Source of the DNA: Caecibacter massiliensis
Lineage (GTDB): Bacteria > Bacillota > Negativicutes > Veillonellales > Megasphaeraceae
NCBI GenBank assembly: GCA_900095875.1
Contig: LT608311.1
Coordinates: forward strand, 2,202,774 to 2,266,773
Reading direction: 5' to 3'
DNA: 64,000 bases
In this document: positions 1 through 26,950 of the stretch, one piece after another
Layout: each line of letters opens with the position of its first letter
Position numbering within the stretch: the first letter of the stretch is position 1
Translations under genes and position numbers: made by a program
Notes under the pieces: generated by a model
Told to the model about the DNA's origin: nothing
Databases searched by the model: none
What the model saw: only the letters and a program-made list of their open reading frames with translations

Positions 1-2
1 CG

Positions 3-527
3 CAAAACATGAGTTGTCGGAATACATCCCTTGGAGTAGATATTTTGCCTTCACAACCACCAATACTTAGTGGACGCAAAATAAAGTTGCCGAAGAGAAA
101 TTTCTTCTCTGATTCGCTTTATTGGCGCAGATTCAGTGACACGTTATCTGATCTCGATGCTCTCTTTCGCGATCAGCGTCACAATCTTGAGACGCGAGAG
201 CGGCGGGAGGATATTATCCTGGATTTTGTTGAAACTGTTTTGTACGAAGCAAATCGTCTACAGAACCTTCCTGCTGGCTGGAGCAAGGAGACTGAGCTGT
301 CAGATGAGCAGGCGACTTGGCTGGATGAAGCCTATGGAAGACAGCGGCAAGCCGATACGGATTGGATTTGGCCGGTTTGCTTGGATTTTTCTCGCTGGCT
401 CGTAAATGCCTACGGGAGGTTCTGTGGCATAGAGAAGCGGAAAGAGATTTCGCTTTCGGATGCAGAGCTGCACTCCTTTGCATCGACGTTGGAGAGCGTC
501 CTGAAGCAGGAGGTGAGAGAAGGATGA
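3..527 (+). CDS. csy1: Csy1 (Cas8f), C-terminal part, cut by the window edge
   Basis: This is the large subunit of the type I-F Cascade complex, which helps recognise the PAM and hold the 5' end of the crRNA. Only about 174 C-terminal residues are visible; the frame is open to the left edge, so the ATG at 9 is internal and the real start lies outside. The assignment rests on position (immediately before csy2-csy3-csy4 and a I-F array) and on the look of the tail (residues QNMSCRN, then WRRF and WPVCLDFSRWL), which fit Csy1 family ends. The stop overlaps the csy2 start in an ATGA junction at 524-527, so the genes are translationally coupled. Confidence is high from context and moderate from sequence alone. 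Confidence 0.85.
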   Translation, partial: QNMSCRNTSLGVDILPSQPPILSGRKIKLPKRNFFSDSLYWRRFSDTLSDLDALFRDQRHNLETRERREDIILDFVETVLYEANRLQNLPAGWSKETELSDEQATWLDEAYGRQRQADTDWIWPVCLDFSRWLVNAYGRFCGIEKRKEISLSDAELHSFASTLESVLKQEVREG

Positions 528-1489
528 ATAGAATTAAAACGTATTTGCTGTTGCGGCAGGTCAAGATTCATAATGCGAATGCATTCAGCAGCCCTCTCAC
601 GATTGGCTTCCCCGCCATGACAGCGTGGCTAGGTGCCATGCACGCGCTTGAAAGAAAGCTTCGTCAGCATGAAGCGCTGTCAGGCATTCGCTTGAAGAAA
701 TTGGCTGTCTCCTGTCATGACTTTGATTTGCAGACCTATAAGGGACCAGGTGACTATGTGAACTCAGTGATTATCACTGCGAATCCCTTGCGAAAAAAAG
801 GTGCTTCCTTTGAGCGGCCACCGTTTATCGAAGAAGCGAGAGTCCATTTGAATGTGTCACTTCTTATCGAAATCGATGGGCTCATGCCGGGCGACTTTCC
901 GGTTTTTGAGGAGAAGGTTACAGAAGCTTTGGAGAGGATGAAGATTGCCGGCGGAGCTGTCCTTGGTTTTTCGCCGATACAAGACGCTATAAATTTAACT
1001 TCGACGCGCCACTCCAGAATCCTCTTGGTTGATGAAAAAAATGAGGAAGATAACCGTCGTGCCATTCGCAGCCTCATGCCGGGATATGTCCTAATAGAGC
1101 GTCGCCAGTTGTTGCAACAAAGACAGGAAGAACTCAATCATCAAGATACCCTGCAGGCGATGCTGGATTTGCTGGCTCTGCACTATGAATACGATGACGA
1201 ACACGATACATGGAATGTACAGCCGCGCAAGGAAAAAGGCTGGTTGGTGCCGATTGTTACAGGATTTAAAGGGCTGACACCACTTGGCCACGTTGCGAAT
1301 CAGCGCGATGCGAGTACGTTGCATCGCTTTGCAGAACCTGTGCTGACCCTCGGCGAGTTCAAGATGGCACATCGGTTTGATTGTGTGGATGATATGATGT
1401 GGCAGTACCATTATGATGAGGATAAAGGTTTATACGTCTGTGTGAATGAGCAGATGGAATCAGATGAAGAGGCTAAAGGAGAGGATTAA
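524..1489 (+). CDS. csy2: Csy2 (Cas5f), type I-F Cascade subunit
   Basis: Csy2 forms the foot of the I-F crRNA complex with Csy1 and binds the 5' handle of the crRNA. The protein has 321 residues, normal for the family, and opens with MNRIKTYLLLRQVKIHNANAF, the usual start before a conserved FP-T/AW-LGAMHALERKL segment. The open frame extends further left to 362, but the ATG at 524 overlaps the csy1 stop (ATGA) and follows a GAGAGAAGG ribosome binding site, so it is preferred. The csy3 start follows 2 bp after the stop. The gene is AT-richer than the housekeeping genes on the right of the window, which suggests acquisition of the whole cas locus. Confidence 0.92.
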   Translation: MNRIKTYLLLRQVKIHNANAFSSPLTIGFPAMTAWLGAMHALERKLRQHEALSGIRLKKLAVSCHDFDLQTYKGPGDYVNSVIITANPLRKKGASFERPPFIEEARVHLNVSLLIEIDGLMPGDFPVFEEKVTEALERMKIAGGAVLGFSPIQDAINLTSTRHSRILLVDEKNEEDNRRAIRSLMPGYVLIERRQLLQQRQEELNHQDTLQAMLDLLALHYEYDDEHDTWNVQPRKEKGWLVPIVTGFKGLTPLGHVANQRDASTLHRFAEPVLTLGEFKMAHRFDCVDDMMWQYHYDEDKGLYVCVNEQMESDEEAKGED

Positions 1490-1491
1490 TC

Positions 1492-2514
1492 ATGGCAAAA
1501 TCAAGCACGAAAGGGTTAGCAACCGTATTGTCTTTTGAGAAAAAAATCGTTCTCTCAGATGGTTTGATGTATGGGACAACTTGGGAAAATCGGCAGACAC
1601 AAGCGACTGCCCTGCCGTTGCATGAAAAATCTGTTCGCGGCACGATTTCCAATCGCCTGAAATCGGCAGTTGCCAATGATCCTGCAAAGCTCAATGCAGA
1701 AGTCGAAAAGCCGAATCTGCAGACTGTTGATGCAGCATCGTTGACCATGGAACAGGATACGCTAAAGGTCACTTTTACGATGAAAGTCCTGCCGGGTGCA
1801 GCTGTTCCCGCAGCCTGCAATGTGGAAAACCACAAGGAAGAAATCTTGAAAATGGGGAAGCGCTATGTTGAGCAATATGGATTTGGCGAATTAGCCAAAC
1901 GATATGCTTTGAATCTTGCTAACGGGCGATTTCTTTGGAGAAATCGCGTCGGCGCAGAAGACTTGGAAGTGCAGGTAAAAGCTGGAAATACGCAGTGGCT
2001 GTTTCATTCATATGATTATTCTCTGAAGGATTTTGATCATGTTGACGAAAAGGTTGAAGCCTTATCGGAACAGATTGAGTCGGCACTGGATGGTAAGCTT
2101 CCGTACTTGCTGTTGGAAGTCACGGCTTTTGCTAAGATTGGCAAGGGACAGGAAGTCTATCCAAGTGAAGAGCTCATTCTTGACAAAGGGAAAGGTAAGA
2201 AAAGCAAAGTGTTATATGAAGTGAACGGTACGGCAGCAATGCATTCTCAGAAGCTCGGCAATGCAATTCGCACGATTGATACCTGGTATAACGAATATGA
2301 AACGGGAAACGGTGTAGGTCCCATTTCTGTAGAACCATATGGGGCTGTGACGAATCTTGGCAAGGCGTTCCGCAATCCAAAAGAAAAATGCGATTTTTAT
2401 ACGCTGTTTGATAAGTATTCACTGGGTGCTGATTTTGACAGTCCGGAAGCTGCTCATTACGTCATGGCTATGCTGATTCGCGGCGGCGTATTTGGCGCAA
2501 GCGGAAAGGAATGA
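1492..2514 (+). CDS. csy3: Csy3 (Cas7f), type I-F Cascade backbone
   Basis: Csy3 is the repeated backbone subunit that wraps the spacer part of the crRNA; six copies assemble per complex in studied I-F systems. The 340-residue protein begins MAKSSTKGLATVLSFEKK and carries the family-typical stretch with GLMYGTTWENR, RGTISNRLK and, near the middle, NGRFLWRNRVGAEDLEV. The C-terminus, with a PYGAVTNLGKAFRNP-like segment and VMAMLIRGGVFG, also matches Csy3. The start lies 2 bp after the csy2 stop with an AAGGAGAGG ribosome binding site. It belongs to one csy1-2-3-4 transcript leading into the CRISPR leader. Confidence 0.95.
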   Translation: MAKSSTKGLATVLSFEKKIVLSDGLMYGTTWENRQTQATALPLHEKSVRGTISNRLKSAVANDPAKLNAEVEKPNLQTVDAASLTMEQDTLKVTFTMKVLPGAAVPAACNVENHKEEILKMGKRYVEQYGFGELAKRYALNLANGRFLWRNRVGAEDLEVQVKAGNTQWLFHSYDYSLKDFDHVDEKVEALSEQIESALDGKLPYLLLEVTAFAKIGKGQEVYPSEELILDKGKGKKSKVLYEVNGTAAMHSQKLGNAIRTIDTWYNEYETGNGVGPISVEPYGAVTNLGKAFRNPKEKCDFYTLFDKYSLGADFDSPEAAHYVMAMLIRGGVFGASGKE

Positions 2515-2519
2515 TAGGT

Positions 2520-3101
2520 ATGTGGTTCTTCCAAGATGTTATATTACGGCCCACAGAAGACATATCCGCTTCCTTCCTTTGGTCCAGAGTCTACCGGCAA
2601 GTTCATTTGGCACTTGTCAACAGCAAGGATGAACAGGGGATAATCCGATGTGGTGTCGCCTTTCCTGAGTATTCCGAGGAGAGTCTGACACTGGGTCATC
2701 GACTTCGTTTGCTCGCTCCAGAAGAATCAGATCTGCAGCGTTTGAATCTGCCTGATGCACTGATGCGTTTTGCCCCAGATTACGTGAAGATTACGACAAT
2801 CCGTCAGGTCCCTATCAGAAAATGTAAGGGATACGTGACATACAGCCGATATCAGCCGGAAGCTACGGTTATGCAGAAAGCTAGACGCTATGCAAAGAGA
2901 CACGGTATTTCAATAGAAGAAGCGCAAAAACTTTTTCCCACGGCTGTCAGTAAGAATCGCTACCCGTATATTCAGCTGGAGAGCATGACCAATCACCATC
3001 GTTTCAGCCTGTTCATCCAGAAGCAGGAAGCTGTAGAGCAGCCATGCAACGGTTTTTCTGCCTATGGATTCAGCAAGAAATCGTCTGTTCCTGATTTCTG
3101 A
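2520..3101 (+). CDS. cas6f: Csy4 (Cas6f), CRISPR RNA endoribonuclease
   Basis: Csy4 cuts the repeat hairpin of pre-crRNA and stays bound to the 3' stem. The residues matching the Pseudomonas aeruginosa active site are present: His in YRQVH (His29 when counted from this start), Ser in IQLESMT (equivalent of Ser148) and Tyr in SAYGFSK (equivalent of Tyr176). A basic segment QKARRYAKRHG fits the RNA-binding arginine-rich helix. I prefer ATG 2520 over ATG 2511 because GGAAAGGA lies 9 nt upstream of it and the catalytic His then falls at the family position. With 2511 the start would overlap the csy3 stop (ATGA). It is followed by the leader. Confidence 0.93.
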   Translation: MWFFQDVILRPTEDISASFLWSRVYRQVHLALVNSKDEQGIIRCGVAFPEYSEESLTLGHRLRLLAPEESDLQRLNLPDALMRFAPDYVKITTIRQVPIRKCKGYVTYSRYQPEATVMQKARRYAKRHGISIEEAQKLFPTAVSKNRYPYIQLESMTNHHRFSLFIQKQEAVEQPCNGFSAYGFSKKSSVPDF

Positions 3102-3231
3102 CCAAAGTTTTTACTATGTACCGAAAAGCCTTGTCAATCAAGGGTTTTGACAAGCGCATAAAATTTTGGTTAAATAAGAGTAGACTGATGCAAGCTTAGG
3201 TAGCATCAGGATATTCGCATAAAAGCCTACT
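3102..3231 (+). promoter_or_regulatory. CRISPR leader
   Basis: This is a 130-bp AT-rich non-coding stretch between csy4 and the first repeat. The perfect repeats lie next to it and the degenerate repeat at the other end (8228-8255), so this side is the leader where new spacers enter and where array transcription should start. A TTGACAAGCG motif at about 3157 could serve as a -35 box. No convincing -10 box was fixed. Confidence 0.7.
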
Positions 3232-6200
3232 GTTAACTGCCGCATAGGCAGCTTAGAAAACATAATCTTTCCTAATTTTGAATCATAAGATGTTAACTGC
3301 CGCATAGGCAGCTTAGAAATATCTGATACCCGTCGCAAATATGTACAACTAGTTAACTGCCGCATAGGCAGCTTAGAAAATGGGGCAGTAGCGTCGTCAC
3401 TAGTGCTAAAGGTTAACTGCCGCATAGGCAGCTTAGAAAATGCTAGGAGCCACACCAGAACAACAGCCATTAGTTAACTGCCGCATAGGCAGCTTAGAAA
3501 GTGATATGGATGAGGAACAACACGTTATCCCAGTTAACTGCCGCATAGGCAGCTTAGAAATACACAGAGAGCAATGGAATTAGGATTGTTCCGTTAACTG
3601 CCGCATAGGCAGCTTAGAAAAATATAAATGCCGACATGATTAGCTACCCCTTGTTAACTGCCGCATAGGCAGCTTAGAAATTAGAAAATTGTAATGGCCA
3701 TTACAAAATGGCGTTAACTGCCGCATAGGCAGCTTAGAAATCTTTTGTCTATCTTATGATATACATAAATTGGTTAACTGCCGCATAGGCAGCTTAGAAA
3801 TTTAATAATTGTAATGGCCGTTACAATTATTAGTTAACTGCCGCATAGGCAGCTTAGAAATGCTGGCACCGCTTGACTCCGAACCCGAATTCGTTAACTG
3901 CCGCATAGGCAGCTTAGAAAGGAATGGCCCTGGTAACGATACTCATACCGCCGTTAACTGCCGCATAGGCAGCTTAGAAATTGCGCGAGCTCCGTAAAGC
4001 CGTCGACATTTTGTTAACTGCCGCATAGGCAGCTTAGAAACGTAATGAATTCAATCAGCCCACTGAACACGCGTTAACTGCCGCATAGGCAGCTTAGAAA
4101 ATTGATGCACACCGGCAAATAGTAGGTGTCCTGTTAACTGCCGCATAGGCAGCTTAGAAAGGGCTCAGTAACTACACATTGCCGGCAGCTACGTTAACTG
4201 CCGCATAGGCAGCTTAGAAAAATATCACAATCCATGCAACGGATAGCACGGCGTTAACTGCCGCATAGGCAGCTTAGAAACATCCGGAAGAGTCCCAACG
4301 GGTATGCCAATCGTTAACTGCCGCATAGGCAGCTTAGAAAGAGCCCTTTCAGACTCGATTCATCTTTCAGCCGTTAACTGCCGCATAGGCAGCTTAGAAA
4401 ATCGGCACGGATGCGGTGCATGACCGACCGCCAGTTAACTGCCGCATAGGCAGCTTAGAAATGTGATTCTAAATATGTAACTGTATTGTAGATGTTAACT
4501 GCCGCATAGGCAGCTTAGAAAAAAACATAAATACCCGTTTTGTGCGATATTGTGTTAACTGCCGCATAGGCAGCTTAGAAATGGAAGCCCCAGAACCAAC
4601 ACGAATGGTTTTAGTTAACTGCCGCATAGGCAGCTTAGAAAATCGGTAATATCTTGCGTAGCGTGCCCCAGAAGTTAACTGCCGCATAGGCAGCTTAGAA
4701 AAGCACCAAAGGCGACTTCCCCATGCCGAAGAAGTTAACTGCCGCATAGGCAGCTTAGAAAAGAAGAAATGGAAGCGGACCGAAAGGAGCAGGGTTAACT
4801 GCCGCATAGGCAGCTTAGAAATACCTCCGGGCAGAGTGTCGGTGATATGTATAGTTAACTGCCGCATAGGCAGCTTAGAAAAGGGAGGCCGACCTGGTCC
4901 GATGTGTTGAGCTGTTAACTGCCGCATAGGCAGCTTAGAAATGTCCGAAAAACCTTTTAGAAATCTTTCCGATGTTAACTGCCGCATAGGCAGCTTAGAA
5001 ACGGCAAAACCCGGGCAGCACTGGAACTCATCCAGTTAACTGCCGCATAGGCAGCTTAGAAATTATCACTGATACGGGCCTGTTCTGCCGGATTGTTAAC
5101 TGCCGCATAGGCAGCTTAGAAAGCATTAGTCCGGACTCACTGAACGGAAATGCATGTTAACTGCCGCATAGGCAGCTTAGAAATTACGGATTGGTCGTGC
5201 GGCATGACGCGGGAAGTTAACTGCCGCATAGGCAGCTTAGAAATATAAATACTCTATACATCCTAAAATGTCAAAGTTAACTGCCGCATAGGCAGCTTAG
5301 AAATTGATAAGCAAGGGAAAGCCCCATGATGCAGAGTTAACTGCCGCATAGGCAGCTTAGAAAATAATTCCCACCTCCTATAAATTAAATGCTTTGTTAA
5401 CTGCCGCATAGGCAGCTTAGAAAATGTCCGCGGTTCCTGTAGTTCCGCTTTCATTTGTTAACTGCCGCATAGGCAGCTTAGAAATTTTTGCACTTAGCGA
5501 AGTCTTGTAAATCCTTGTTAACTGCCGCATAGGCAGCTTAGAAAACGTCATCATCATGCGTCGGCTCTTCGGGAATGTTAACTGCCGCATAGGCAGCTTA
5601 GAAAATATATTGTTACATATGTCAAAAAGTCCTGGCGTTAACTGCCGCATAGGCAGCTTAGAAATAAAACAACGGAATAGTCCGTTCAAATTCATCGTTA
5701 ACTGCCGCATAGGCAGCTTAGAAATGTATGGGTGGCACAGTACGGCTATTTTGAAAGTTAACTGCCGCATAGGCAGCTTAGAAATTATATAAAAATATAT
5801 TTATGTACTTTACTCCGTTAACTGCCGCATAGGCAGCTTAGAAAGCATGGCCATTGGTATTTCTCAGTTCCGGATGGTTAACTGCCGCATAGGCAGCTTA
5901 GAAACAGTGTACTTGTTAATAACGTCTATTTCTTGTGTTAACTGCCGCATAGGCAGCTTAGAAAAGAATGGGTAACAGAAGCCATTTCCCAGGACTGTTA
6001 ACTGCCGCATAGGCAGCTTAGAAATTTATGCTATTGTCGTATATGGCGACATGAAGGTTAACTGCCGCATAGGCAGCTTAGAAATCCTTAAAATGTATCA
6101 AATTCACCAGACGCAAGTTAACTGCCGCATAGGCAGCTTAGAAAAGACGAACAGGAGGTATGAGTTATGCGTGATGGTTAACTGCCGCATAGGCAGCTTA

Positions 6201-6416
6201 GAAAGCCCGGAACGAACGCCGCAGGGCCTTTGCAAGGTTAACTGCCGCATAGGCAGCTTAGAAAATGAAACTGTTACGTTGACACACGACGCTATCGTTA
6301 ACTGCCGCATAGGCAGCTTAGAAATCCTCCTCAAAACGATTTGTACAGTACATCGGGTTAACTGCCGCATAGGCAGCTTAGAAACCGTATCAAGCCAGCT
6401 GACTTTGCATAAATAT

Positions 6417-6658
6417 GTTAACTGCCGCATAGGCAGCTTAGAAATGCACTATGCGATGTTCGGGAAAAACTTGTCGAGTTAACTGCCGCATAGGCAGCTT
6501 AGAAACAAGGCGTCGCATGTAATGGGCGTGTCATACGGTTAACTGCCGCATAGGCAGCTTAGAAATGCACTATGCGATGTTCGGGAAAAACTTGTCGAGT
6601 TAACTGCCGCATAGGCAGCTTAGAAACAAGGCGTCGCATGTAATGGGCGTGTCATACG
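6417..6658 (+). repeat. Tandem duplication of two repeat-spacer units
   Basis: The 121-nt block 6417-6537 (repeat, 33-nt spacer starting TGCACTATGC, repeat, 32-nt spacer starting CAAGGCGTCG) is repeated exactly at 6538-6658. This is a duplication by recombination between repeats, not two independent acquisitions. Confidence 0.95.
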
Positions 6659-7744
6659 GTTAACTGCCGCATAGGCAGCTTAGAAAAAGTTCATTGATTT
6701 GTCCGAACTGGCTCAGTATGTTAACTGCCGCATAGGCAGCTTAGAAAAAACAAAAGGGGAACGTGACGGAGGATGGTATAGTTAACTGCCGCATAGGCAG
6801 CTTAGAAAAAGAGCTTCCTGGCCATGGCCGTGCTGGCCTGCGTTAACTGCCGCATAGGCAGCTTAGAAAATGCCACCTATGCCAGGGCGTGCATGCCATC
6901 GGTTAACTGCCGCATAGGCAGCTTAGAAAATCTTTTAAGGCCTCGGCAATGTTAGGATACTTGTTAACTGCCGCATAGGCAGCTTAGAAAGCATGACGTG
7001 CTAGATGGCGTACATGAATACCGTTAACTGCCGCATAGGCAGCTTAGAAATGGGTATACCGGCAGTTCCTTCCTCTGCTGTAGTTAACTGCCGCATAGGC
7101 AGCTTAGAAAATATGTATACCGATGTACCCATAGGTACCCCGGTTAACTGCCGCATAGGCAGCTTAGAAAATGATAGAATACCTGGGACACACCATTTAC
7201 CTGTTAACTGCCGCATAGGCAGCTTAGAAAAGTACGTAAGAGTGAAGACAAGAAAAGATATCGTTAACTGCCGCATAGGCAGCTTAGAAAGGTAGGACTT
7301 CACTCGTAATCCAGTGCTTGAAGTTAACTGCCGCATAGGCAGCTTAGAAATTCCCGGCGTATGGTACCGGGCAAGTGATGTAGTTAACTGCCGCATAGGC
7401 AGCTTAGAAAAAATGTATTGTCCCGAAAACGTGTCATTATTCGTTAACTGCCGCATAGGCAGCTTAGAAATCTCTTTCACTTTTTTAAAAATTGTAATGG
7501 CCGTTAACTGCCGCATAGGCAGCTTAGAAATTTAAGCCCTTATAACTCTCATAGTATCGCATGTTAACTGCCGCATAGGCAGCTTAGAAAGTACATGATA
7601 TAGTTACTCATACTCTTTCACTCGTTAACTGCCGCATAGGCAGCTTAGAAAACCAGTTGTGAACCGCATCATAGATAAAGGAGGTTAACTGCCGCATAGG
7701 CAGCTTAGAAATTGTTATAGACCGCCGTCATAACCCCGTTTTTT

Positions 7745-8106
7745 GTTAACTGCCGCATAGGCAGCTTAGAAAAGGTGTGACCGGAACACGATGTGATGTA
7801 TCTCCGTTAACTGCCGCATAGGCAGCTTAGAAAATAAGCCATACGAAGTAGGTTGCCGTTGTTGTGTTAACTGCCGCATAGGCAGCTTAGAAAAACAGGT
7901 GTTGTGTCTGCAAAAAAAGTCATAAGTTAACTGCCGCATAGGCAGCTTAGAAAGTCGTGATGAAATGAAAAATATTCCCTATATCGTTAACTGCCGCATA
8001 GGCAGCTTAGAAAAGGTGTGACCGGAACACGATGTGATGTATCTCCGTTAACTGCCGCATAGGCAGCTTAGAAAATAAGCCATACGAAGTAGGTTGCCGT
8101 TGTTGT
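7745..8106 (+). repeat. Duplicated spacer pair in order A-B-C-D-A-B
   Basis: Spacer A (7773-7805, starting AGGTGTGACC) and B (7834-7865, starting ATAAGCCATA) occur again at 8014-8046 and 8075-8106. Two unique spacers, C (7894-7925) and D (7954-7985), lie between the copies. The order suggests a four-unit duplication followed by loss of the second C-D, or an unequal exchange. It lies near the old (trailer) end of the array. Confidence 0.95.
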
Positions 8107-8379
8107 GTTAACTGCCGCATAGGCAGCTTAGAAATTCCCGCCAGTCCACTTTATCCAGATCTTCATTGTTAACTGCCGCATAGGCAGCTTAGAAAATATG
8201 GCGCGTGTGTCCGGGAATCCAGTAGTCGTTAACTGCCGTATAGGCAGTTTAGAAAGTAGACAGCTCCTTTACCAGTGACAGCGATTCGTTAGCCGTTCTT
8301 ATCGACTTTTGCGCTCGGAGATTTTGCCGTTGGTAGAAATCCCTTAGTGTAACATAGTTCTAAGTGAGACTTGCCAGAA

Positions 8380-8439
8380 AGAAGACCCTGATAATAATGA
8401 TAGGTCATTGCACCGATTTCATTATTATCAGGGTCTTCT
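8380..8439. repeat. Perfect 21-bp inverted repeat beyond the array
   Basis: The left arm 8380-8400 (starting AGAAGACCCTG) and the right arm 8419-8439 (ending CAGGGTCTTCT) are exact reverse complements around an 18-nt loop. There is no T-run, so it is not a classic terminator for the long crRNA transcript, although it could still stop or stabilise it. A MITE-like remnant is the alternative. The stretch 8256-8379 between array and hairpin shows nothing I recognise. Confidence 0.8.
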
Positions 8440-8875
8440 ATGAAAACTATTGTAGCAGAAATCACCAGAACAATAAAAAATTCAGGTATAGTGATAGTGT
8501 CAGGAGGGTGTAGGCATTTTTAGGGATGAGAAAAAGACTTTGGTATAAAGCTGCATAATATGCTGATGGCCACCGTTTTCTACTAGTCGCATCCATCCGC
8601 CCATCAAGGTGGATTCACGGTCTGGCATAGGATTTGCTTTTTCAGGAATGTAGGTGCAGTCCTTTAATTTCCGAAAATTCCATTCTTTTTTTAAGATGTC
8701 CTGATTGATGTTCACGCGAGTTCGACACATGCAACCGGGAAAGAGTGACACGAAGTCTACTATAAGGTTTTATAAGCATTTTTTATTTTAAAAGTGTCAA
8801 AGAGGGAATTTTACATGATTTTTACGAAGAAGCAAGGAACCGGTCAGATTTTTCTATCGATTCCCGGCAAGATGA
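8440..8875. other. Non-coding stretch, nothing recognised
   Basis: This is AT-rich DNA between the array hairpin and the purH promoter. A minus-strand frame of 83 codons (8500-8751) is the only open frame of size. It has no clear ribosome binding site and no family I recognise, and could be debris of a transposase. Confidence 0.4.
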
Positions 8876-8905
8876 TTGACAGTGCCGCGATTCCCCTTGT
8901 ATAAT
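8876..8905 (+). promoter_or_regulatory. Sigma-70 promoter of purH
   Basis: TTGACA at 8876-8881 and TATAAT at 8900-8905 are separated by 18 nt. Transcription would start near 8912, just before the ZTP aptamer. Confidence 0.85.
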
Positions 8906-8917
8906 AGACGTGAAACA

Positions 8918-9012
8918 TGTGACTGACGGAAAGTGGAGCATACCACGGGGAGCATGATTCGATATAGCCGACCGTCTGGGCGAAGGTTCCCGGAAGTGTC
9001 GGTATTTTTTTT
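8918..9012 (+). ncRNA. ZTP (pfl) riboswitch with transcription terminator
   Basis: The leader shows the diagnostic pfl elements: an early GACTGACGG segment, a GTGGAGCATACCAC hairpin with GGGGAGCA after it, and the 3' core CCGACCGTCTGGGCG. The sequence from CCGAC (about 8968) to GTCGG (about 8998-9002) followed by TATTTTTTTT forms the terminator that competes with ligand binding. ZTP riboswitches sense the purine intermediate ZMP/ZTP and switch on purine and folate genes. Here it lies directly upstream of AICAR transformylase, the enzyme that consumes ZMP. Exact ends are approximate. Confidence 0.88.
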
Positions 9013-9035
9013 ATCTGCGTACGGAGGTAATAACG

Positions 9036-10211
9036 ATGAAAGAACTGCAATTAAAATACGGCTGCAATCCCAATCAGGCTTCGGCCAGAGTGTATATGAA
9101 AGACGGCAGCGACCTTCCTTTTGATGTCTTAAATGGCCGCCCCGGCTATATCAACCTGCTCGATGCGTTCAACAGCTACCAGCTGGTCAAAGAACTGAAG
9201 GAAGCGACGGGCCTTGCGGCAGCAGCTTCTTTCAAACACGTCAGCCCCGCCGGTGCAGCCGTAGCGACGGACATGAGCGATACCCTGAAAAAAATCTACT
9301 GGGTCGATGACTTGGCCCTGTCCCCGCTGGCCTCGGCCTATGCCTGTGCCCGTGGTGCCGACCGCATGAGCTCCTACGGCGATTTCGTCGCCCTGTCCGA
9401 CGTCTGTGACGTCGAAACGGCAACCCTCCTCAAACGGGAAGTATCGGACGGCGTTATCGCTCCGGGATACACCGACGAAGCCCTGGAACTGCTCAAGACA
9501 AAGAAAAAAGGGAAATACTGCGTCCTCCAGATGCATAGCGATTATACGCCGGCTCCTATCGAATCGAAAGAAGTATACGGCGTCACCTTCGAACAGGAAC
9601 GGAACAACGCCAAAATCACGGCAGATCTCTTCAAGGAAATCCCGACGAAAAACAAGAATCTCCCGGCATCGGCAATCCGCGACCTCATGATCGCCCTCAT
9701 CACGTTGAAATACACCCAGTCCAACTCCGTCTGCTACGTCAAAGACGGCATGACCATCGGCGTCGGTGCCGGACAGCAGTCCCGTGTACACTGCACCCGC
9801 CTGGCAGGCAACAAAGCGGACATCTGGTGGCTCCGCCAGAACCCGAAAGTCCTGGCCCTGCCCTTCCGTGACGACGTGCGCCGTCCGAACCGGGACAATG
9901 CCATCGACGTCTACATTTCCGATGACTACGAAGACGTCCTGGCCGACGGCATCTGGCAGGATCTGTTTACGGAAAAACCGGAACCGCTCACACGGGAAGA
10001 AAAGAAAGCCTGGATTGCCCAGCTCCACGGTGTAGCCCTGGGCAGCGACGCCTTTTTCCCCTTTGGCGACAACATCGAACGGGCCCATCGTAGCGGTGTA
10101 GACTACATCGCCCAGGCCGGCGGCTCCATCCGTGACGACAACGTCATCGAAACCTGCGACAAATACGGCATAGCCATGGCCATGACCCACCTGCGCCTGT
10201 TCCATCACTAA
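9036..10211 (+). CDS. purH: AICAR transformylase, stand-alone (no IMP cyclohydrolase domain)
   Basis: The enzyme formylates AICAR (ZMP) with 10-formyl-THF in late purine synthesis. The 391 residues cover only the transformylase part of PurH: the start MKELQLKYGCNPNQ matches the beginning of the AICARFT domain, with ASFKHVSPAGAAV, NSVCYVKDGMTIGVGAGQQSR, SDAFFPFGDNIERA and the C-terminal AQAGGSIRD motifs. The N-terminal MGS-like IMP cyclohydrolase domain is absent, so that step must be encoded elsewhere. Such short forms are known in several Firmicutes. Ribosome binding site CGGAGG lies about 9 nt before the ATG. The gene is monocistronic, with its own promoter, ZTP riboswitch and terminator. 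Confidence 0.95.
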   Translation: MKELQLKYGCNPNQASARVYMKDGSDLPFDVLNGRPGYINLLDAFNSYQLVKELKEATGLAAAASFKHVSPAGAAVATDMSDTLKKIYWVDDLALSPLASAYACARGADRMSSYGDFVALSDVCDVETATLLKREVSDGVIAPGYTDEALELLKTKKKGKYCVLQMHSDYTPAPIESKEVYGVTFEQERNNAKITADLFKEIPTKNKNLPASAIRDLMIALITLKYTQSNSVCYVKDGMTIGVGAGQQSRVHCTRLAGNKADIWWLRQNPKVLALPFRDDVRRPNRDNAIDVYISDDYEDVLADGIWQDLFTEKPEPLTREEKKAWIAQLHGVALGSDAFFPFGDNIERAHRSGVDYIAQAGGSIRDDNVIETCDKYGIAMAMTHLRLFHH

Positions 10212-11592: not shown

Positions 11593-12702
11593 GTGAATAA
11601 GGCATACCGATACAGGCTCTATCCAACGGCTGAACAAAAAATTATGTTTGCCAAGACTTTCGGCTGTGTCCGATTCATCTATAACAAGATGCTTGGAGAC
11701 CGCCTTGATTACTATAAGGAAACCGGTAAGAAACTGAATAATACTCCTGCACAGTACAAGGAAGAATTCCCTTGGCTGAAAGAAGTGGACAGTCTTGCTC
11801 TTGCCAATGCACAGATGAACCTGAACAAGGCATATAACAATTTTTTTCGCAACCGAAAACATTTTGGCAAACCGCACTTCAAGTCTAAGAAGACAGGCCA
11901 CTGCTCATATTCTACGAACAATCAGAAAGGCTCTGTCCGATTAGAAGGAAATAAGGTTAAATTGCCTAAAGTTGGTTGGGTAAAATTATGTCTGCATCGT
12001 CCCCTGATGGAAAACAGCACGATAAAGACCGTTACCATAAGCAGAACACCTTCAGGAAAATTCTATATCAGTATTTTGGTGGAGTACGAAAACCAAATAC
12101 TCCCTATAATGCCGAAGAAATTTCTTGGGCTTGATTTTGCCATGCACGGTCTATATGTTGCTTCTGACGAAGATGATGCGAATTATCCAAACTTTTTGCG
12201 TAAAACCGAGAAGAGATTGGCTCAAGCACAAAGAAAACTATCCAAAAGGCAAAAAGGAAGCCACAATCGTGAAAAGCAAAGGCTTCGCGTAGCTGTGCTT
12301 CATGAGAAAATTGCCAATCAACGCCGCGACTTCCTGCACAAAAAAGCCCGCTACTTGGTAGACCACTATGATGCCATAGGTATTGAGGATATCAGCGTCA
12401 AGGCGATGGCTAAACGCAAGAAAGGCGGTAAATTCAGTTTTGGTAAGTCCGTAGCAGATAATGGCTGGAATATGTTCACAAATATATTGGAATACAAATT
12501 AGCATGGCAAGGAAAACAGCTTGTAAAGGTAGACAAGTGGTATCCAAGCAGTCAGCTATGTCATGTTTGTGGCTTCCAAAACGATGCAACTAAGGACTTA
12601 TCTGTAAGGGAATGGGATTGTCCTAAATGTGGCAGTCACCATAACCGAGATAAGAACGCTGCGATAAATATACGAGAAGAAGCTAGGCGAATATCTGCCT
12701 GA
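11593..12702 (+). CDS. tnpB: TnpB, RNA-guided nuclease of an IS605-type element
   Basis: TnpB is the ancestor-like relative of Cas12 that cuts DNA guided by an omegaRNA made from the element's right end and so preserves the element. The 369-residue protein starts at a GTG (NKAYRYRLYPT after it) behind GGTGAG. RuvC residues are intact: Asp in GLDFAMHG (about 180), Glu in IGIEDISVK (about 265) and Asp in HNRDKNAAINI (about 353). A zinc finger CHVCG...CPKCG lies between the last two. It ends in EEARRISA just before the right-end hairpin region. All catalytic features are present, so the nuclease is probably functional although its tnpA is dead. Confidence 0.93.
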   Translation: MNKAYRYRLYPTAEQKIMFAKTFGCVRFIYNKMLGDRLDYYKETGKKLNNTPAQYKEEFPWLKEVDSLALANAQMNLNKAYNNFFRNRKHFGKPHFKSKKTGHCSYSTNNQKGSVRLEGNKVKLPKVGWVKLCLHRPLMENSTIKTVTISRTPSGKFYISILVEYENQILPIMPKKFLGLDFAMHGLYVASDEDDANYPNFLRKTEKRLAQAQRKLSKRQKGSHNREKQRLRVAVLHEKIANQRRDFLHKKARYLVDHYDAIGIEDISVKAMAKRKKGGKFSFGKSVADNGWNMFTNILEYKLAWQGKQLVKVDKWYPSSQLCHVCGFQNDATKDLSVREWDCPKCGSHHNRDKNAAINIREEARRISA

Positions 12703-12952: not shown

Positions 12953-12974
12953 CTTAGTTGAACTATCAACTAAG
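12953..12974. repeat. Palindrome CTTAGTTGA-ACTA-TCAACTAAG
   Basis: A perfect 9-bp inverted repeat with a 4-nt loop and no T-run. It shares the TAGTTGA half-site with the palindrome at 13250-13271, which suggests a dimeric repressor operator rather than a terminator. Confidence 0.7.
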
Positions 12975-13061: not shown

Positions 13062-13188
13062 AAAACGAATTTTCAGGAAAAATGGAAAATCCGCCCCGCA
13101 AACTGCCTCATAGACCTGCATAAATACAGGCTTCGTAAGGGGTGCTGTACATTACCTTAATCCCCGCAAGGGGACGGGCTTTTTTGTA
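13062..13188 (+). ncRNA. Possible small structured RNA ending in a terminator
   Basis: A TATAAT at about 13055 precedes a stretch with several stems: ATTTTC/GAAAAT (about 13070-13091), CCCC at about 13097 with GGGG at about 13140, CCTG-CATAAATA-CAGG (about 13115-13130), and a final TCCCC-GCAA-GGGGA stem followed by CGGGCTTTTTT at 13160-13187. There is no open frame with a ribosome binding site. The whole looks like an independent small RNA, but I do not recognise the family, and the -35 box is weak. Confidence 0.45.
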
Positions 13189-13201
13189 ATGGCCATTACA
13201 A
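13184..13201. repeat. 18-bp palindrome shared with CRISPR spacers
   Basis: TTGTAATGGCCATTACAA is its own reverse complement. The same 18 bp sits inside the spacer at 3681-3712, a one-base variant in the spacer at 3801-3832, and the left half in the spacer at 7471-7502. It overlaps the T-run of the small RNA terminator. It may be an operator or an element end. Confidence 0.85.
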
Positions 13202-13249
13202 TTTCCTTTTATGAGTTTTTTTTTATCCTCATACGGTGGCTATGTGTTA

Positions 13250-13271
13250 TATAGTTGAAGTTTCAACTATA
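13250..13271. repeat. Palindrome TATAGTTGAA-GT-TTCAACTATA
   Basis: A perfect 10-bp inverted repeat with a 2-nt centre, of a shape bound by MarR-type or similar dimers. It is the second TAGTTGA palindrome in 300 bp, and lies 0.5 kb upstream of hsdR. The remaining 13272-13764 holds no gene or clear promoter that I could identify. Confidence 0.7.
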
Positions 13272-13764
13272 TTGGCAAAGGTTGGAGAGCGGTGTTGTGG
13301 TGGGGCAGTGGTATAATTGTATGTTATATTGGACAAGGGTTCCTAGTGGAGTTGTGCCAATGTAAAGAGCGCCTGTCATGTATGGAAATTTAGCTATAGG
13401 TAAAACTGTTTTGGTACTGACATAGAGAAAATCATGTGTTTGCTTGATTATGGCTTTTAAGTTCAGTATAATCGATGTATAAAAATGATTTTTTTAGATG
13501 ACAGGTATTTTTTTCATGGTATTTAGTATAGACATGTGAAAATCGTAGAGAGGTTGAAATATAAAAAACTATAGCCGATAATTGATACTCAATCAATTTC
13601 CATTATGAAGCTTGAAAAATGAAAACATCTATACGAAATTATAGAGAAGATGTGTATCGTTGCACTCTGTAAAAGCCGTTTGGGCAATGATCCGGCCGTT
13701 TCTTTATCCAAAAGTGATAACTATGCTGGAACCATAGACAAAGATGCACAATCGGTGAAAAGGG

Positions 13765-16700
13765 ATGATAAAATTGGCGAATTTTGAGAGTAAAGAATAT
13801 CCAAGTCTGGCAAAATTAGCGGATAGCGCAGAATTCCTGATGTATTCTGATGCCAAGAGTAGTCTGACGATTTTTGGCTCATTCGCTGAACAATTAACAA
13901 AACTGATTTTCCGCTTAGATGGAATGAAAGACTGGAATTTACAGCAGAATGAGCGTATTTTACGTATGCAGGCTTCCAGTAATGAATATCCATCCAGTGT
14001 GACCGCTTCTTTGGATAAGATTCGCCGGTTACGCAATAAAGCTTCTCATGAAGATGATTTTCACCCTTCTCTTGATGATGCTCTATTTATCGATCGTGCC
14101 GCATTCTTTGTTTGGTGCTGGTTCCTTGAAACGTTCACACAAGATGAGATAAAGCCTTATGAGAAACCCGTAAACCAGCAGACCGTTGTTGCCAATCAGC
14201 AAAAGAAAATTGAACAGTTGACTGCTGAAATCGAGAAGCTCCAGCAGATTCAGCCTATACAGGTACCAGAAAATGTCCGTGCTGAACGCCGGCGTAAAAA
14301 TAAAAAATTTGCGGCAACGAACGAATTAACAGAAGAACAGACGCGGGAAATCATTGACCAGCAGCTTCGGGATGCGGGATGGGAAGCCGATACAAAAACG
14401 CTTAATAATTGGAAAAAAGGCACACTTCCACGAAAGGGGCATAATATGGCTATTGCCGAGTGGAAACTGCCTCATAGCAGGGAACGTGCGGATTATGTCC
14501 TTTTCAGTGGCGAACGTGCTGTGGGTATCATTGAAGCCAAAAAGTATGGAGAAACGGTAGCAGCAAGTGCTCTGAACCAGGCCTATGATTACTATAAACA
14601 TCTAAAAAAGGCAGAAAATGTTGTGGCTGAGGGTCGGAAACCCTATGCAATGGACGGTGCTGTATTTTTGTTTGGCACCAACGGCCGACCGTATTTATCT
14701 CAGATGAAAAGCCAGTCCGGAATCTGGTTCCGTGATGTGCGCAATAAAAATCATCCGGACTGCCCCCTGGAAAGCTGGCTAACGCCGGATGATATCAAAA
14801 TGAAAGAAATGGCCCGTCCCGAAGAGGATGCAGATTCCGCTTTAAAAAATGACGATTACTATCCTGATTTTGCCGGACGGTATTATCAGAAGCTGGCCAT
14901 TCAGGAAATCGAAAAAGCCATAGGCGAGCACAAAAATCGTATCCTGCTGGCCATGGCAACTGGGACAGGGAAAACACGTACGGCCATAGCCCTGATGTAC
15001 CGGCTGATTAAGAATAAACGGGCCCGCCGTATCTTATATCTCGTAGATCGTCAGTCCTTGGCACAGCAGACGGCAGATGCCCTCAAAGATAACAAAGTGG
15101 ATGGCCAGTCTATTAGCAGTATATATGGTGTAAAAGAATATGGAGATAAAAGTCCGGAAGCCAATACCCGTATCCACATCGCTACCGTACAAGGACTCGT
15201 ACAGCGGCTGTTTAATAACGAGGGGGAACTTCCCCAGCTTTCTCCGGGAACATATGATTTCATTATCGTCGATGAAGCTCACCGCGGCTATCTGGAAGAC
15301 CGCGAGATGAGCGATGAGGAAATGGAACATTATGATCCCAGCGAATATATCAGTCAATACCGCCGTGTCATCGACTATTTTGATGCCGTAGCGATTGGCA
15401 TGACGGCAACGCCGGCATTAAATACGGTCAATATCTTTGGCAATCCTGTCTATAGTTATACCTACAGGCAGGCTGTCCTTGATGGCTATCTGATGGATCA
15501 TAATGCCCCCTATGTCATTAAAACAGAACTTTCAGAGCAGGGCATTCATTTTCATAAAGATGAGGAAGTCGAAATCTTTCATGAACCCGATGCGTCTATA
15601 AAAAAATATCAGTTACCGGATGATATGGATTTTGATGTCGATTCGTTCAATACGAAAGTGGTGACAGAATCTTTCAATCGTGTAGTTTGTCAGGCTTTGG
15701 CAGAACGGCTCGATCCGCTGGATTGTGAACTTGGCAAGACACTGATCTTTGCCGCCCGTGATTCTCATGCCGATATGATCGTATACCTTTTGCAGGAGGC
15801 TTTTGCCAAAGCCGATAAGCCCTTACCGGCTGATGCCATCATGAAAATTACGGGACACGACCGCCATAGAGAACAGCATATCCGAGAATTTAAAAACGAA
15901 GAATTCCCGAATATCGTGGTTACCGTTGACCTTTTAACGACGGGCATTGACGTCCCATCCATCATGAACCTCGTGTTCATGCGTCGCGTGAAGTCCCGTA
16001 TTTTGTTTGAACAAATGATTGGCCGTGCTACGCGCCTATTTCCAGGCATGGACTGCTTCAATATCTACGATGCGGTAGGACAGTTCGCCAGCATGGAAAA
16101 AGTAACCGATATGAATGCGGTCATTCGTGAAAAGAACGTAAATCGTTCCGTGGAAGATCTCTTTCAGTTAGTTACGGGAGCGGAAAATGATGGAGACTTT
16201 GAGGAATATCGGGATCAGCTGATTGCCAAAGTTCAGCGTAAATTACATCGGCTCCATGATAAAGACCGCAAATCGCTGGAAACAGCGACGGGGACTATGG
16301 ATCTGTTTGAATGGGCCAGGTCTTTGGAAACAAGCAGCAAAGAAAAACTGATAAAAGAAGGGCAGACCATCCTGCTCATAGATTCTTTCCGCAGGGATTC
16401 CCAAAAGGTCTTTATTTCCCACCAGGATGATAAGCTGGTAAGTGTTCATCAGAGTTATGGGAAGACAGGAGAAGAACCCGGCGATTATCTGGAAGAATTT
16501 AATGCGTTCATCAAGAATAACGTTAATGCCATTGCGGGAATCGGTGTCATCGTGAATCGTCCGAGAGATTTGACATTAAAAGAGTTACAGCAGATTAATG
16601 CTATACTTCAGACAAAAGGCTTCCGGGAACGCGATTTGCAATCTGCATGGCGGCAGGTGAATAAAGAAGCGACAGCGGCTAATATTATCAGTTTTATCCG

Positions 16701-16983
16701 CCAGGCCGCCCTGGGTACCCCACTGGAGTCAGAAGATGCGCTGGTGGAACGTGCTATGAATAAGGTCTATGGCTTGGCAGACTGGACGCCGACGCAGATG
16801 AAATGGTTGGAACGAATTAAAAAGCAGCTGCTTCAGAACAATGTTCTGGGACCTAATGCCCAGGTAGCTTTTGAATCCAACGAAGCCTTTCGCAGTCATG
16901 GTGGCTATAAAAGAATGCAGAGTGTTTTTAAAGACAAAACCGATGAAATTATCGACGTTATTAATGATATCATATTTGCTTAA
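13765..16983 (+). CDS. hsdR: Type I restriction enzyme, R subunit (HsdR)
   Basis: This is the motor and nuclease subunit of a type I restriction system. The 1072 residues contain: a helical N-terminal domain (1-125) like DUF4145, a coiled coil (about 140-175), a PD-(D/E)XK nuclease core with Asp about 242 and EAKK at 256-259, and a superfamily 2 helicase with Walker A ATGTGKT (about 398-404), DEAH (about 502-505), GMTATP (about 545) and QMIGRATR (about 750-757). The C-terminal part fits the HsdM-binding domain of EcoEI-type enzymes. Start ATG 13765 follows AAAAGGG. hsdM starts 15 bp downstream. There are no breaks, so it should be active. Confidence 0.95.
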   Translation: MIKLANFESKEYPSLAKLADSAEFLMYSDAKSSLTIFGSFAEQLTKLIFRLDGMKDWNLQQNERILRMQASSNEYPSSVTASLDKIRRLRNKASHEDDFHPSLDDALFIDRAAFFVWCWFLETFTQDEIKPYEKPVNQQTVVANQQKKIEQLTAEIEKLQQIQPIQVPENVRAERRRKNKKFAATNELTEEQTREIIDQQLRDAGWEADTKTLNNWKKGTLPRKGHNMAIAEWKLPHSRERADYVLFSGERAVGIIEAKKYGETVAASALNQAYDYYKHLKKAENVVAEGRKPYAMDGAVFLFGTNGRPYLSQMKSQSGIWFRDVRNKNHPDCPLESWLTPDDIKMKEMARPEEDADSALKNDDYYPDFAGRYYQKLAIQEIEKAIGEHKNRILLAMATGTGKTRTAIALMYRLIKNKRARRILYLVDRQSLAQQTADALKDNKVDGQSISSIYGVKEYGDKSPEANTRIHIATVQGLVQRLFNNEGELPQLSPGTYDFIIVDEAHRGYLEDREMSDEEMEHYDPSEYISQYRRVIDYFDAVAIGMTATPALNTVNIFGNPVYSYTYRQAVLDGYLMDHNAPYVIKTELSEQGIHFHKDEEVEIFHEPDASIKKYQLPDDMDFDVDSFNTKVVTESFNRVVCQALAERLDPLDCELGKTLIFAARDSHADMIVYLLQEAFAKADKPLPADAIMKITGHDRHREQHIREFKNEEFPNIVVTVDLLTTGIDVPSIMNLVFMRRVKSRILFEQMIGRATRLFPGMDCFNIYDAVGQFASMEKVTDMNAVIREKNVNRSVEDLFQLVTGAENDGDFEEYRDQLIAKVQRKLHRLHDKDRKSLETATGTMDLFEWARSLETSSKEKLIKEGQTILLIDSFRRDSQKVFISHQDDKLVSVHQSYGKTGEEPGDYLEEFNAFIKNNVNAIAGIGVIVNRPRDLTLKELQQINAILQTKGFRERDLQSAWRQVNKEATAANIISFIRQAALGTPLESEDALVERAMNKVYGLADWTPTQMKWLERIKKQLLQNNVLGPNAQVAFESNEAFRSHGGYKRMQSVFKDKTDEIIDVINDIIFA

Positions 16984-16998
16984 TAGAAAGAGAAGATT

Positions 16999-18447
16999 AT
17001 GACCAATCAGGAAATTGTACAACGTTTGTGGAATGAATGTAATGTCCTTCGGGATGATGGCATTACCTATCAGGATTATGTGACGGAACTTACGTATATT
17101 TTGTTTCTCAAGATGAGCAAGGAGCAAGGACAGGAAGAAGGAATCCCGGAGCAGTATCGTTGGGATGAGCTGAAAAATAAAGAAGGGTTGGAACTCAAGA
17201 ATTTCTATAAGCAGATGCTTTTGGACCTGGGCAATGAACGAAAGACACCCAATTCAAAAGTAAATGCCATATATAAAGATGCGTCAACCAGTATTGATGA
17301 ACCAGCCAATCTGGAAAAAATCATCAAAGATATTGATGAGCTCGACTGGTTCTCGGCTAGAGAAGAAGGGCTGGGAAATCTGTATGAAGGGCTTCTGGAA
17401 AAAAACGCCAGTGAAACCAAGTCCGGCGCCGGCCAGTATTTTACGCCGCGTCCTCTCATCAACATGATGGTGCGTATGGTGGACCCCAAACCGGGAGAAC
17501 GGCTCTGTGATCCGGCAGCAGGGACTTTCGGCTTTATGGTAGCTGCCAATGACTACCTGAAAAAGCAGACCGATGATTATTTTGACTTGTCTGATGAGGA
17601 GCAACAATTCCAACGGCATGAAGCTTTTTCCGGTATGGAGCTAGTCCCGACTACTCATCGTCTGGCTCTTATGAATGAATATTTGCATGATATGGACGGA
17701 CGCTTGGAACAGGGCGACAGCCTTTCAGCGGCGGGGAAATGGATGAAGGACTTCGACGTCATTTTGACCAATCCACCATTTGGTACGAAAAAGGGCGGTG
17801 AACGGGCTACCCGTGACGACCTTACTTATGCCACATCGAATAAGCAGCTCAATTTCTTGGAAATCATTTACAATGCCCTCAATCGAAAAGGGACAGCTCG
17901 TGCCGCTGTCGTAGTTCCGGATAATGTCCTCTTTGCCGATGGCGCAGGCGAACAGATTCGTCGTGACTTGATGAATAAATGCAATCTCCACACCATTCTG
18001 CGCCTTCCGTCAGGCATTTTCTACGCCCAGGGCGTGCAGACCAACGTCCTGTTCTTTGACCGTGGGACTACAGACCAAAATAATACAGAGGAAATCTGGA
18101 TCTATGATATGCGCCATAAAATGCGCACTTTTGGCAAGCGCTCTCCCCTGAATGAAAAGGACTTCGCTGAATTCGAGAAACTGTACTGCCCTGACAATCG
18201 TACAGAACGTAAAGAGACGTATGATGCAGAAACCAACCCTGAAGGACGGTGGCGCAAATTTACGAAAGCGGACATCGAGGGTCGTCCCAATACCAGTCTC
18301 GATATTTCCTGGATGACCGATGAAGAAGAAGCGGATACCCGCAGCCTTTCTGAAATCCTGACGGCCATGCAGGAGAAATCCGAAGAGATTGCCCAGGCCG
18401 TAGCCGTACTCAACCAGGAATTGGCGGGGGTGGATCAGGATGACTAA
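16999..18447 (+). CDS. hsdM: Type I restriction modification methyltransferase (HsdM)
   Basis: This N6-adenine methyltransferase subunit protects host DNA and, with HsdR, forms the restriction complex. The protein has 482 residues with an N-terminal helical HsdM_N domain (WNECNVLRDDGITYQDYVTEL), the AdoMet site preceded by GQYFTPRPLI, motif I DPAAGTFGF (about 171-179) and the catalytic motif IV NPPF (about 257-260). Ribosome binding site AGAAGA precedes ATG 16999, 15 bp after hsdR. The end overlaps the hsdS start by 8 nt, typical for strict co-expression of M and S. Confidence 0.96.
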   Translation: MTNQEIVQRLWNECNVLRDDGITYQDYVTELTYILFLKMSKEQGQEEGIPEQYRWDELKNKEGLELKNFYKQMLLDLGNERKTPNSKVNAIYKDASTSIDEPANLEKIIKDIDELDWFSAREEGLGNLYEGLLEKNASETKSGAGQYFTPRPLINMMVRMVDPKPGERLCDPAAGTFGFMVAANDYLKKQTDDYFDLSDEEQQFQRHEAFSGMELVPTTHRLALMNEYLHDMDGRLEQGDSLSAAGKWMKDFDVILTNPPFGTKKGGERATRDDLTYATSNKQLNFLEIIYNALNRKGTARAAVVVPDNVLFADGAGEQIRRDLMNKCNLHTILRLPSGIFYAQGVQTNVLFFDRGTTDQNNTEEIWIYDMRHKMRTFGKRSPLNEKDFAEFEKLYCPDNRTERKETYDAETNPEGRWRKFTKADIEGRPNTSLDISWMTDEEEADTRSLSEILTAMQEKSEEIAQAVAVLNQELAGVDQDD

Positions 18448-26663: not shown

Positions 26664-26680
26664 ATGATCGCCTCCTTTTT

Positions 26681-26707
26681 GGACCCACGGCCGGAGGTCG
26701 TGGGTCC
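26681..26707 (-). promoter_or_regulatory. Hairpin directly upstream of the primase ribosome binding site (repeat copy R8 fragment)
   Basis: GGACCCACG and CGTGGGTCC form a 9-bp perfect stem with a GCCGGAGGT loop, about 5 nt upstream (minus-strand view) of the Shine-Dalgarno of the primase gene. The sequence is shared with the type B repeats (GGACCCACGGCC, TCGTGGGTCC). It may limit or tune translation of the replication gene. Beyond it (26708-26810) are a GGCCCC/GGGGCC hairpin and no gene. Confidence 0.6.
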
Positions 26708-26810
26708 TGTATGCTGATTTGATGAAAATGAGGCCCCTTCCGCCACTCCGGGGCCCTCCTTCCCCTCACGGGGACGGCAAAGATCCCCAGTCCGTCAAAC
26801 CAGCTGCTAG

Positions 26811-26950
26811 TTGCTAACCGCTGACTGCTAACTGCTGCCTGCGATTTTCATATCAAATCGTTAAGTAACAGGCTATACCCATGCAGGGAGATCCTGCCTT
26901 TTCTGACCACTAACCACTGATCACTAACCACTGACCTACGGCCTACGACG
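26811..26950. repeat. Heptamer repeats (CTAACYR and GAACNAC types)
   Basis: Runs such as GCTAGTT GCTAACC GCTGACT GCTAACT (26811-26845) and CACTAAC CACTGAT CACTAAC CACTGAC (26902-26935), then GAACGAT GAACGAA, continue into the end of the DUF669-like gene. The period is 7 nt. The rest of 26708-26986 holds no gene. Confidence 0.7.

Follow-up and report, generated by a model that had tools for sequence, protein, structure and literature searches.

Why should three otherwise different spacers of one CRISPR array contain the same palindromic sequence? The question is raised by a type I-F locus at the beginning of the window, by which we mean the whole 64,000-nucleotide stretch of Caecibacter massiliensis DNA analysed here. 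The gene order Cas8f-Cas5f-Cas7f-Cas6f is that of type I-F CRISPR-Cas: the C-terminal part of cas8f (csy1; 9–527, PADLOC Cas8f, E 3.1e-29), a gene that begins upstream and is cut by the window start, is followed by cas5f (csy2; 524–1489, PADLOC Cas5f, E 1.2e-98), cas7f (csy3; 1492–2514, PADLOC Cas7f, E 6.2e-138) and cas6f (csy4; 2511–3101, PADLOC Cas6f, E 3.3e-50), all on the plus strand. A cas1_YPEST gene (I-F type Cas1, E 4.4e-141) lies about 4.3 kb upstream of the window, at C2:2197601–2198506; two adjoining partial cas1_YPEST matches at G000:C2:172277–173010 (model positions 1–110 and 93–249) are perhaps a broken second cas1. The part of the window ahead of the array contains no Cas2-3 fusion. 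The array itself (3232–8255, plus strand) comprises 84 repeats of 28 nt, the last of which (8228) carries two changes, and 83 spacers, 67 of 32 nt and 16 of 33 nt. Its leader end is presumed to be at 3232, and spacers are numbered from this cas-gene side. Seventy-nine of the spacers are distinct, and two pairs of neighbouring spacers are each duplicated within the array (window about 6445–6658 and 7773–8106): copies of the pair starting with TGCACTATGC and CAAGGCGTCG stand in tandem, and those of the pair starting with AGGTGTGACC and ATAAGCCATA are separated by two spacers.

The shared motif is the 13-mer AATTGTAATGGCC, found in spacers #8 (3681–3712), #10 (3801–3832) and #71 (7471–7502). Spacer #8 holds the perfect 18-bp palindrome TTGTAATGGCCATTACAA at 3689–3706, spacer #10 holds the one-base variant TTGTAATGGCCGTTACAA at 3809–3826, and spacer #71 stops at the motif centre and retains half the palindrome; the perfect, variant and half forms described in the initial annotation are all confirmed, positions included. 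Spacer #9 (3741–3772), which falls inside the range 3681–3832 assigned there to the motif, is without it, yet it matches exactly the phages described below. All 11-mers common to any two of the distinct spacers belong to the palindromic motif. In 200 dinucleotide-preserving shuffles of each spacer, the longest word common to at least three spacers measured 7–10 bases, against 13 in the array, which bears out the earlier claim that this degree of sharing is not expected by chance. The resemblance between #8 and #71 alone, 15 bases, is not extreme, as a pair of spacers sharing 15 bases also appeared in two of the 200 shuffles. This is the one observation in keeping with a fortuitous likeness of unrelated spacers, an explanation already refuted by the three-spacer word and by the repetition of the motif in the very phages that these spacers match, and to which we assign virtually no probability.

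Phages carrying the palindrome and the protospacers

Where does the palindrome come from? Its exact form occurs in only two IMG/VR contigs, here called phage A (IMGVR_UViG_3300021400_000335, 43.3 kb) and phage B (IMGVR_UViG_2841216226_000004, 43.4 kb), which at up to three mismatches carry seven and five copies, respectively. A looser pattern retrieves 26 stretches from IMG/VR, five of them in A or B and one (L067) in a third record, which is a fragment of this phage and has the copy located near the capsid gene. Each of the 20 further contigs shows a single copy within the DNA examined, 13 of these copies in an open frame and seven outside; no homology to proteins of A or B was detected among them, except for three contigs matching one protein (dUTPase-like by reading).

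Phage A encodes a single-subunit RNA polymerase of the T7 type (Pfam RNA_pol, E 5.1e-89), a T7-like DNA polymerase and a tyrosine integrase (PF00589, E 1.5e-27). Phage B resembles A by similarity, and its integrase is 97% identical. Judged by their genes, both are probably temperate T7-like phages carrying an integrase. The polymerase of phage A shares 33.5–36.7% identity with named phages among the 15 matches listed, the G+C content of A is 39% compared with 51% in the window, and flanking host DNA is absent from both phage records. Two copies of a transposase pair, IS3-like by reading of the proteins, interrupt at 16065–17257 and 25923–27115 of phage B (L026, L027) genes that are continuous in A.

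Further members of the family proved elusive. Protein searches with the integrase and with the primase-helicase each matched A and B only, a DNA search with the first 5.6 kb of A found no match among 50,697 phage records, and two gapped patterns built around the spacers brought up no additional phage with the site in the DNA examined. Judged by its DNA polymerase, MT835557.1 (49%) is the nearest gut phage, and it has neither the palindrome at up to one internal mismatch nor a spacer match at up to seven mismatches. The phage polymerase had no match in 15 genomes of the host genus, in a search that was run without a positive control and shows little. Among 72,556 plasmid records, 31 match the 5.6-kb region, and the 20 listed do so only through the SprT-like gene. 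The suggestion that the motif is repeated in the targeted phages or plasmids thus holds for phages, with seven and five copies per genome, and finds no support for plasmids among the matches listed.

Which spacers derive from such phages? When the 79 distinct spacers are all aligned to A and B with gaps allowed, and one shuffle per spacer serves as control, six of them stand out from background, namely #8–10 and #71–73. Their best scores are 22–32, against at most 16 for the remaining real spacers and a shuffled maximum of 19. Spacer #9 matches A 2584–2615 and B 2300–2331 at 32 of 32 positions, upstream of the gene for a ribbon-helix-helix (RHH) protein and with a CC PAM, and spacer #73 (7591–7623) has two mismatches in 33 to B 1775–1807 (minus strand), also with a CC PAM. 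Spacer #72 (7531–7562) has five mismatches to A 1736–1767, with CC one base off. The three motif spacers, for which a CC PAM had been anticipated, give a mixed picture. Spacer #8 has gapped matches at A 3126 and 4602, in both of which the CC is exact after gapped alignment, and one at B2515 without CC; spacer #10 matches A 1856–1887 (minus strand) at 32 of 32 positions with CC one base off; and spacer #71, a relative of A 1869–1900 and B 1755–1786 (minus strand; gapped score 26 in A, five mismatches in B), has no CC PAM. All six spacers are read on the plus strand of the window.

The six protospacers span A 1736–3157, or extend to 4633 if #8 derives from A4602, and all of them lie within one control region of about 1.4–2.9 kb between the integrase and RNA polymerase genes. 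Five are wholly outside predicted genes, and 21 bases of the #73 protospacer fall in the beginning of a B gene. The protospacers of #8, #10 and #71 are located at copies of the palindrome outside predicted genes; the opposite outcome named in the initial annotation, protospacers scattered in unrelated coding sequence with no common site, did not occur. Given the region, the preference for intergenic targets is modest: gene-free stretches make up 10% of A but 39% of A 1205–5454. The clustering of the spacers in the control region is not modest: for the remaining 73 distinct spacers, no position in either phage gives a score beyond background. A and B are not the source phages, and these alignments detect only spacers from parts that the sources have in common with them, so the location of most matches outside genes could partly come from only such parts being shared.

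Role of the site in the phage

What could the site be doing in these genomes? The initial proposal, in which the targeted phages would carry repeats of a regulatory or recombination site, is supported, at the level of sequence, by the copies in A and B. We consider it likely that the shared motif is a repeated, operator-like 18-bp site of T7-like integrase phages and that the array remembers the control region of these phages twice; the site itself is probably a phage operator. Seven of the 12 copies (A1862, A3134, A4610, A9335, B1748, B2523 and B7120) stand 21–31 bp upstream of a gene start predicted by our own ORF script. The copy A1862 begins two bases after a TATAAT, and B1748 follows the same TATAAT; a promoter-like AAGACA-17-TATAAT precedes A1862. 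Such promoter-like matches are barely above chance in A 1–10000 (49 found versus 40.5 expected in shuffles, s.d. 6.3), and the position of the site counts for more than the score. By eye, a further copy with two mismatches (A5477) overlaps the putative start codon of the RNA polymerase gene; the earlier start chosen by the script places it within the gene. The remaining copies occupy other boundaries: A1400 and B1278 lie between the integrase and the early genes, and the pair A23031 and B22310 is flanked by two late genes, which by reading encode scaffold and capsid. This last pair stands 82–84 bp from the next gene and adjoins a terminator-like hairpin (by eye), which speaks against an operator.

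The copies differ in where they depart from symmetry. The centre of A9335 has three changes, likewise a point against an operator; the imperfect half is on one side in A1400, A1862 and A23031 and on the opposite side in B1748. Since either half can be the imperfect one, orientation seems irrelevant, which is what a DNA-bound dimer would lead one to expect. A protein would thus recognise the site as a dimer; bound at A1862 or B1748 it would block transcription, and it would keep the early genes off in lysogeny. Repeated repressor sites are known from temperate phages, as in the lambda operators and the stoperators of mycobacteriophage L5, which likewise consist of one short palindrome or near-palindrome repeated in intergenic parts. 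We know of no operator that the 18-bp palindrome itself matches.

Which protein could recognise it? Family scans covered 16 of the 52 predicted proteins of A and two of the 53 of B. One candidate DNA-binder is the 52-aa RHH protein (weak match to phrog_876, E 6e-5; a PDB sequence search returned nothing at E up to 0.1), whose candidacy for the palindrome is weakened by the different palindrome flanking its own gene: its candidate operator, GTATATC-N4-GATATAC, occurs twice exactly and once with one mismatch, always beside that gene. The control region of the RHH gene (A 2574–2809 and B 2299–2518) contains GTATATCCAGTGATATAC twice and one variant, the latter covered by spacer #9. A second candidate is an 83-aa HTH_17 protein at the right end of A (E 1.4e-13), which we take to be excisionase-like. 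Ten other phage proteins compared with Pfam at E up to 0.5 included no transcription regulator. A function of the palindrome as promoter of the phage RNA polymerase was set aside, as a different repeated motif, TTAATTGT[CG]GCA, fits that role better; this candidate promoter is present at five places in A and six in B, all on the plus strand.

The closest known parallel is found in LUZ100 and its relatives, T7-like phages with temperate features. According to the published account (PMC10134795), these phages also combine a single-subunit RNA polymerase with a tyrosine integrase. Regulators of lysogeny whose sites lie on either side of the RNA polymerase promoter have been proposed for T7-like phages, and a regulator is believed to keep the polymerase gene in check by binding sites near its promoter. 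LUZ100 differs in having a MarR-like regulator, whereas none appeared among the scanned proteins of A and B, which possess instead the small RHH protein, with a candidate operator beside its gene, and, separately, the repeated 18-bp palindrome.

Could the palindrome instead be a recombination or boundary sequence at which cassettes are exchanged, flanking swapped modules and for that reason common to the spacers? Comparison of A and B over their 60 longest alignments provides several points in favour of this. Despite a likeness of about 95% in most aligned blocks, the two genomes are mosaic early on; similarity ends 25–27 bp past A1862/B1748, and the genes behind differ; and A3134 and A4610 bracket about 1.5 kb with three genes (83 aa, SprT-like and 98 aa) that are unaligned in B, where the single copy B2523 aligns with both. 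However, the segment of A absent from B runs from about 2803 to 4600, its left end being away from any site, and the pairs A1400/B1278, A9335/B7120 and A23031/B22310 sit inside continuous similarity. A 64-bp direct repeat at the ends of the A cassette (3066–3129 and 4540–4603, 97%) could mediate swapping alone, and a promoter module travelling with each cassette would give the same picture. That the site travels with the cassettes as a control element is simpler than that it helps their exchange, and we regard the latter as unlikely.

Two probable episodes of spacer acquisition

How did one control region come to be represented so often in the array? The phage-matching spacers form two consecutive trios. 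The older, #71–73, maps to A1736–1900 and B1775–1807; the newer, #8–10, maps in order from older to newer to A1856, A2584 and A3126 (or A4602). These observations fit best with two acquisition episodes from one phage family, the second proceeding via imperfect matches of the first, and the order and position of the spacers suggest that uptake was probably by priming. Under such a scenario, trio #71–73 would have been acquired first, later phages would have diverged at those targets, and the imperfect matches of #71–73 would then have primed the nearby uptake of trio #8–10. The motif would be common to spacers of both trios since the site is repeated in the region, not through a Cas preference for palindromes.

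Precedents exist in type I-F systems: two reports describe priming, through which several spacers are added from the vicinity of the primed site and from both strands (PMC4117759), and one-base slips of the machinery at the PAM (PMC5059440). The type I-F system of Pectobacterium atrosepticum, for which primed adaptation is described, is like the present one in its Cas8f-Cas5f-Cas7f-Cas6f genes, 28-nt repeats and 32/33-nt spacers, as well as in the one-base slips, the clustering of new spacers near earlier targets on both strands and the CC/GG PAM, which is exact here for three of the six spacers (PMC4117759, PMC5059440). It differs in that priming is in our case read off a natural array. Clustering would likewise follow from some property of the phage, for instance which of its ends is the first to enter.

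Another possibility is that Cas1-Cas2/3 or a host nuclease prefers palindromes, which would turn the site into an acquisition hot spot. Three of the six phage-matching spacers do overlap a copy; the other three do not, and the positions of #8, #9 and #73 are explained by their CC PAMs. Moreover, an 18-bp palindrome without a loop forms only a weak hairpin. We consider such a preference highly improbable. The earlier statement that the memory samples a regulatory site repeatedly therefore needs rewording in favour of repeated sampling of the region: the control region was sampled twice, and half of the six spacers are without the palindrome. Selection need not act on the motif as such, and the resampling covers the whole control region.

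Copies in cellular genomes and a presumed relic array

Does the palindrome also belong to the host? At up to two mismatches, the 2.65-Mb genome has no copies beyond those of the array and a fourth exact one at 13184–13201, and a much looser pattern adds one place, C2:427474. The original count of three spacers is right for the I-F array and overlooked this fourth copy. With one copy outside the array, a host-wide repeat is rejected for this genome. A widespread bacterial site is not supported either, as TTGTAAYGGCCATTACAA is found in only six stretches of the genome collection (Pelagibacteraceae, Pseudobutyrivibrio, Pedobacter, two in one Bacteroidales MAG and one in another bacterium), none of them in a record named for this genus; the collection possibly omits records very close to the genome of the window. 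A search for a REP element with GGGACGG ahead of the palindrome was negative in all 15 genus genomes, its pattern being too narrow to dispose of such elements.

The fourth copy occupies the first spacer slot of what is presumably a relic array. A presumed leader and repeat of a second CRISPR kind extend over 13078–13180 on the plus strand, with the repeat core ATCCCCGCAAGGGGAC at 13160–13175, and the palindrome starts eight bases after this core. The stretch 13078–13177 is 74% identical over 101 bp (E 3e-8) to one end, presumed to be the leader side, of a four-repeat mini-array in a related genome, G009. At up to one mismatch, the core ATCCCCGTAAGGGGAC is present once in this genome and 59, 19 and 43 times in G009 and two other related genomes, G012 and G013. 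The repeat-like score near the 13184 copy is 17 (background: 1% level 14, 5% level 10, 10% level 9), and a weaker second repeat-like stretch can be seen by eye at about 13225–13241. Because the palindrome stands in the first spacer slot after the sole repeat core, the copy plausibly represents a fossil spacer that belonged to a different CRISPR kind. Considered as a self-target, it offers no CC PAM to #8 or #10, the two spacers examined. The surroundings contain several further elements: a palindrome pair TAGTTGA-N4-TCAACTA on either side of the copy (12953–12974 and 13249–13272), a TnpB/Cas12f-like ORF near the relic array (11593–12702), and a type I restriction-modification operon (R, M and S; 13765–19879) some 560 bp past it.

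Close variants of the motif, TTGTA[CT][CT][AG]GCCATTACAA, are present at 10 places in the chromosomes of G009, G012 and G013, including four pairs at matching places in two genomes. A reversed control pattern is absent from these genomes, a looser search giving one occurrence in G013. Such a distribution would speak for a host protein that binds the site, the host copies being its native sites, and for a phage that uses or titrates this factor. We find this quite unlikely: the genome of the window has one copy outside the array, 11 of the 15 genus genomes have no variant at up to two mismatches, and the flanking genes have no common theme by eye. In addition, four of the 10 sites are near second-kind repeats (within about 3.3 kb, in a search allowing up to nine mismatches in 31), so that some may not be native regulatory sites. 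The variants also count against the operator reading preferred here, since several of them lie between genes that look convergent by eye, a position ill suited to an operator.

Is there then a connection between the palindrome and the second CRISPR kind? When the window is included, such repeats accompany five of 11 loci and are missing from six. Two variant sites are less than 400 bp from second-kind arrays (L079 and L081), and L033 and L035 seem by eye to abut repeat-like stretches. Against the background levels given above, the scripted repeat score reaches 13 at L079 (the L035 locus) and 12 at L081 (L034), the repeat match of the latter being located 39 bp past its site; L080 (L033) scores 9, and the remaining seven variant loci 6–9. 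The second-kind repeat family is present in number in six of the 15 genus genomes, three of which have no palindrome variant at up to two mismatches. The link between the palindrome and these repeats is suggestive only. It is very doubtful whether the palindrome marks the edge of second-type CRISPR loci in the genus, with phage copies drawing on or occupying a host factor and the I-F spacers targeting the mimic. At about 2310–2800 of L034 (G012:C1), consecutive repeats carry a hairpin insert of about 45 bp, which the preceding repeats are without.

We return, then, to a repeated, operator-like phage site as the likely source of the shared motif. That the spacers share a repeated phage site is a real and well-supported observation, and its first reading was essentially right. 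The parts are of known kinds; what makes the case interesting is that a single control region was sampled twice and that a fossil record may exist. Open-licence PubMed Central, searched by titles and abstract starts, yielded no paper with a title on the site, which is a weak indication. The finding links the array to a little-known family of T7-like, probably temperate phages, from which immune memory was taken twice out of one control region. If needed for control, a site with several copies in each phage genome could not easily be altered in all of them, and may therefore be a durable target. If the link to the fossil array is true, one phage site would have been recorded by two CRISPR systems.
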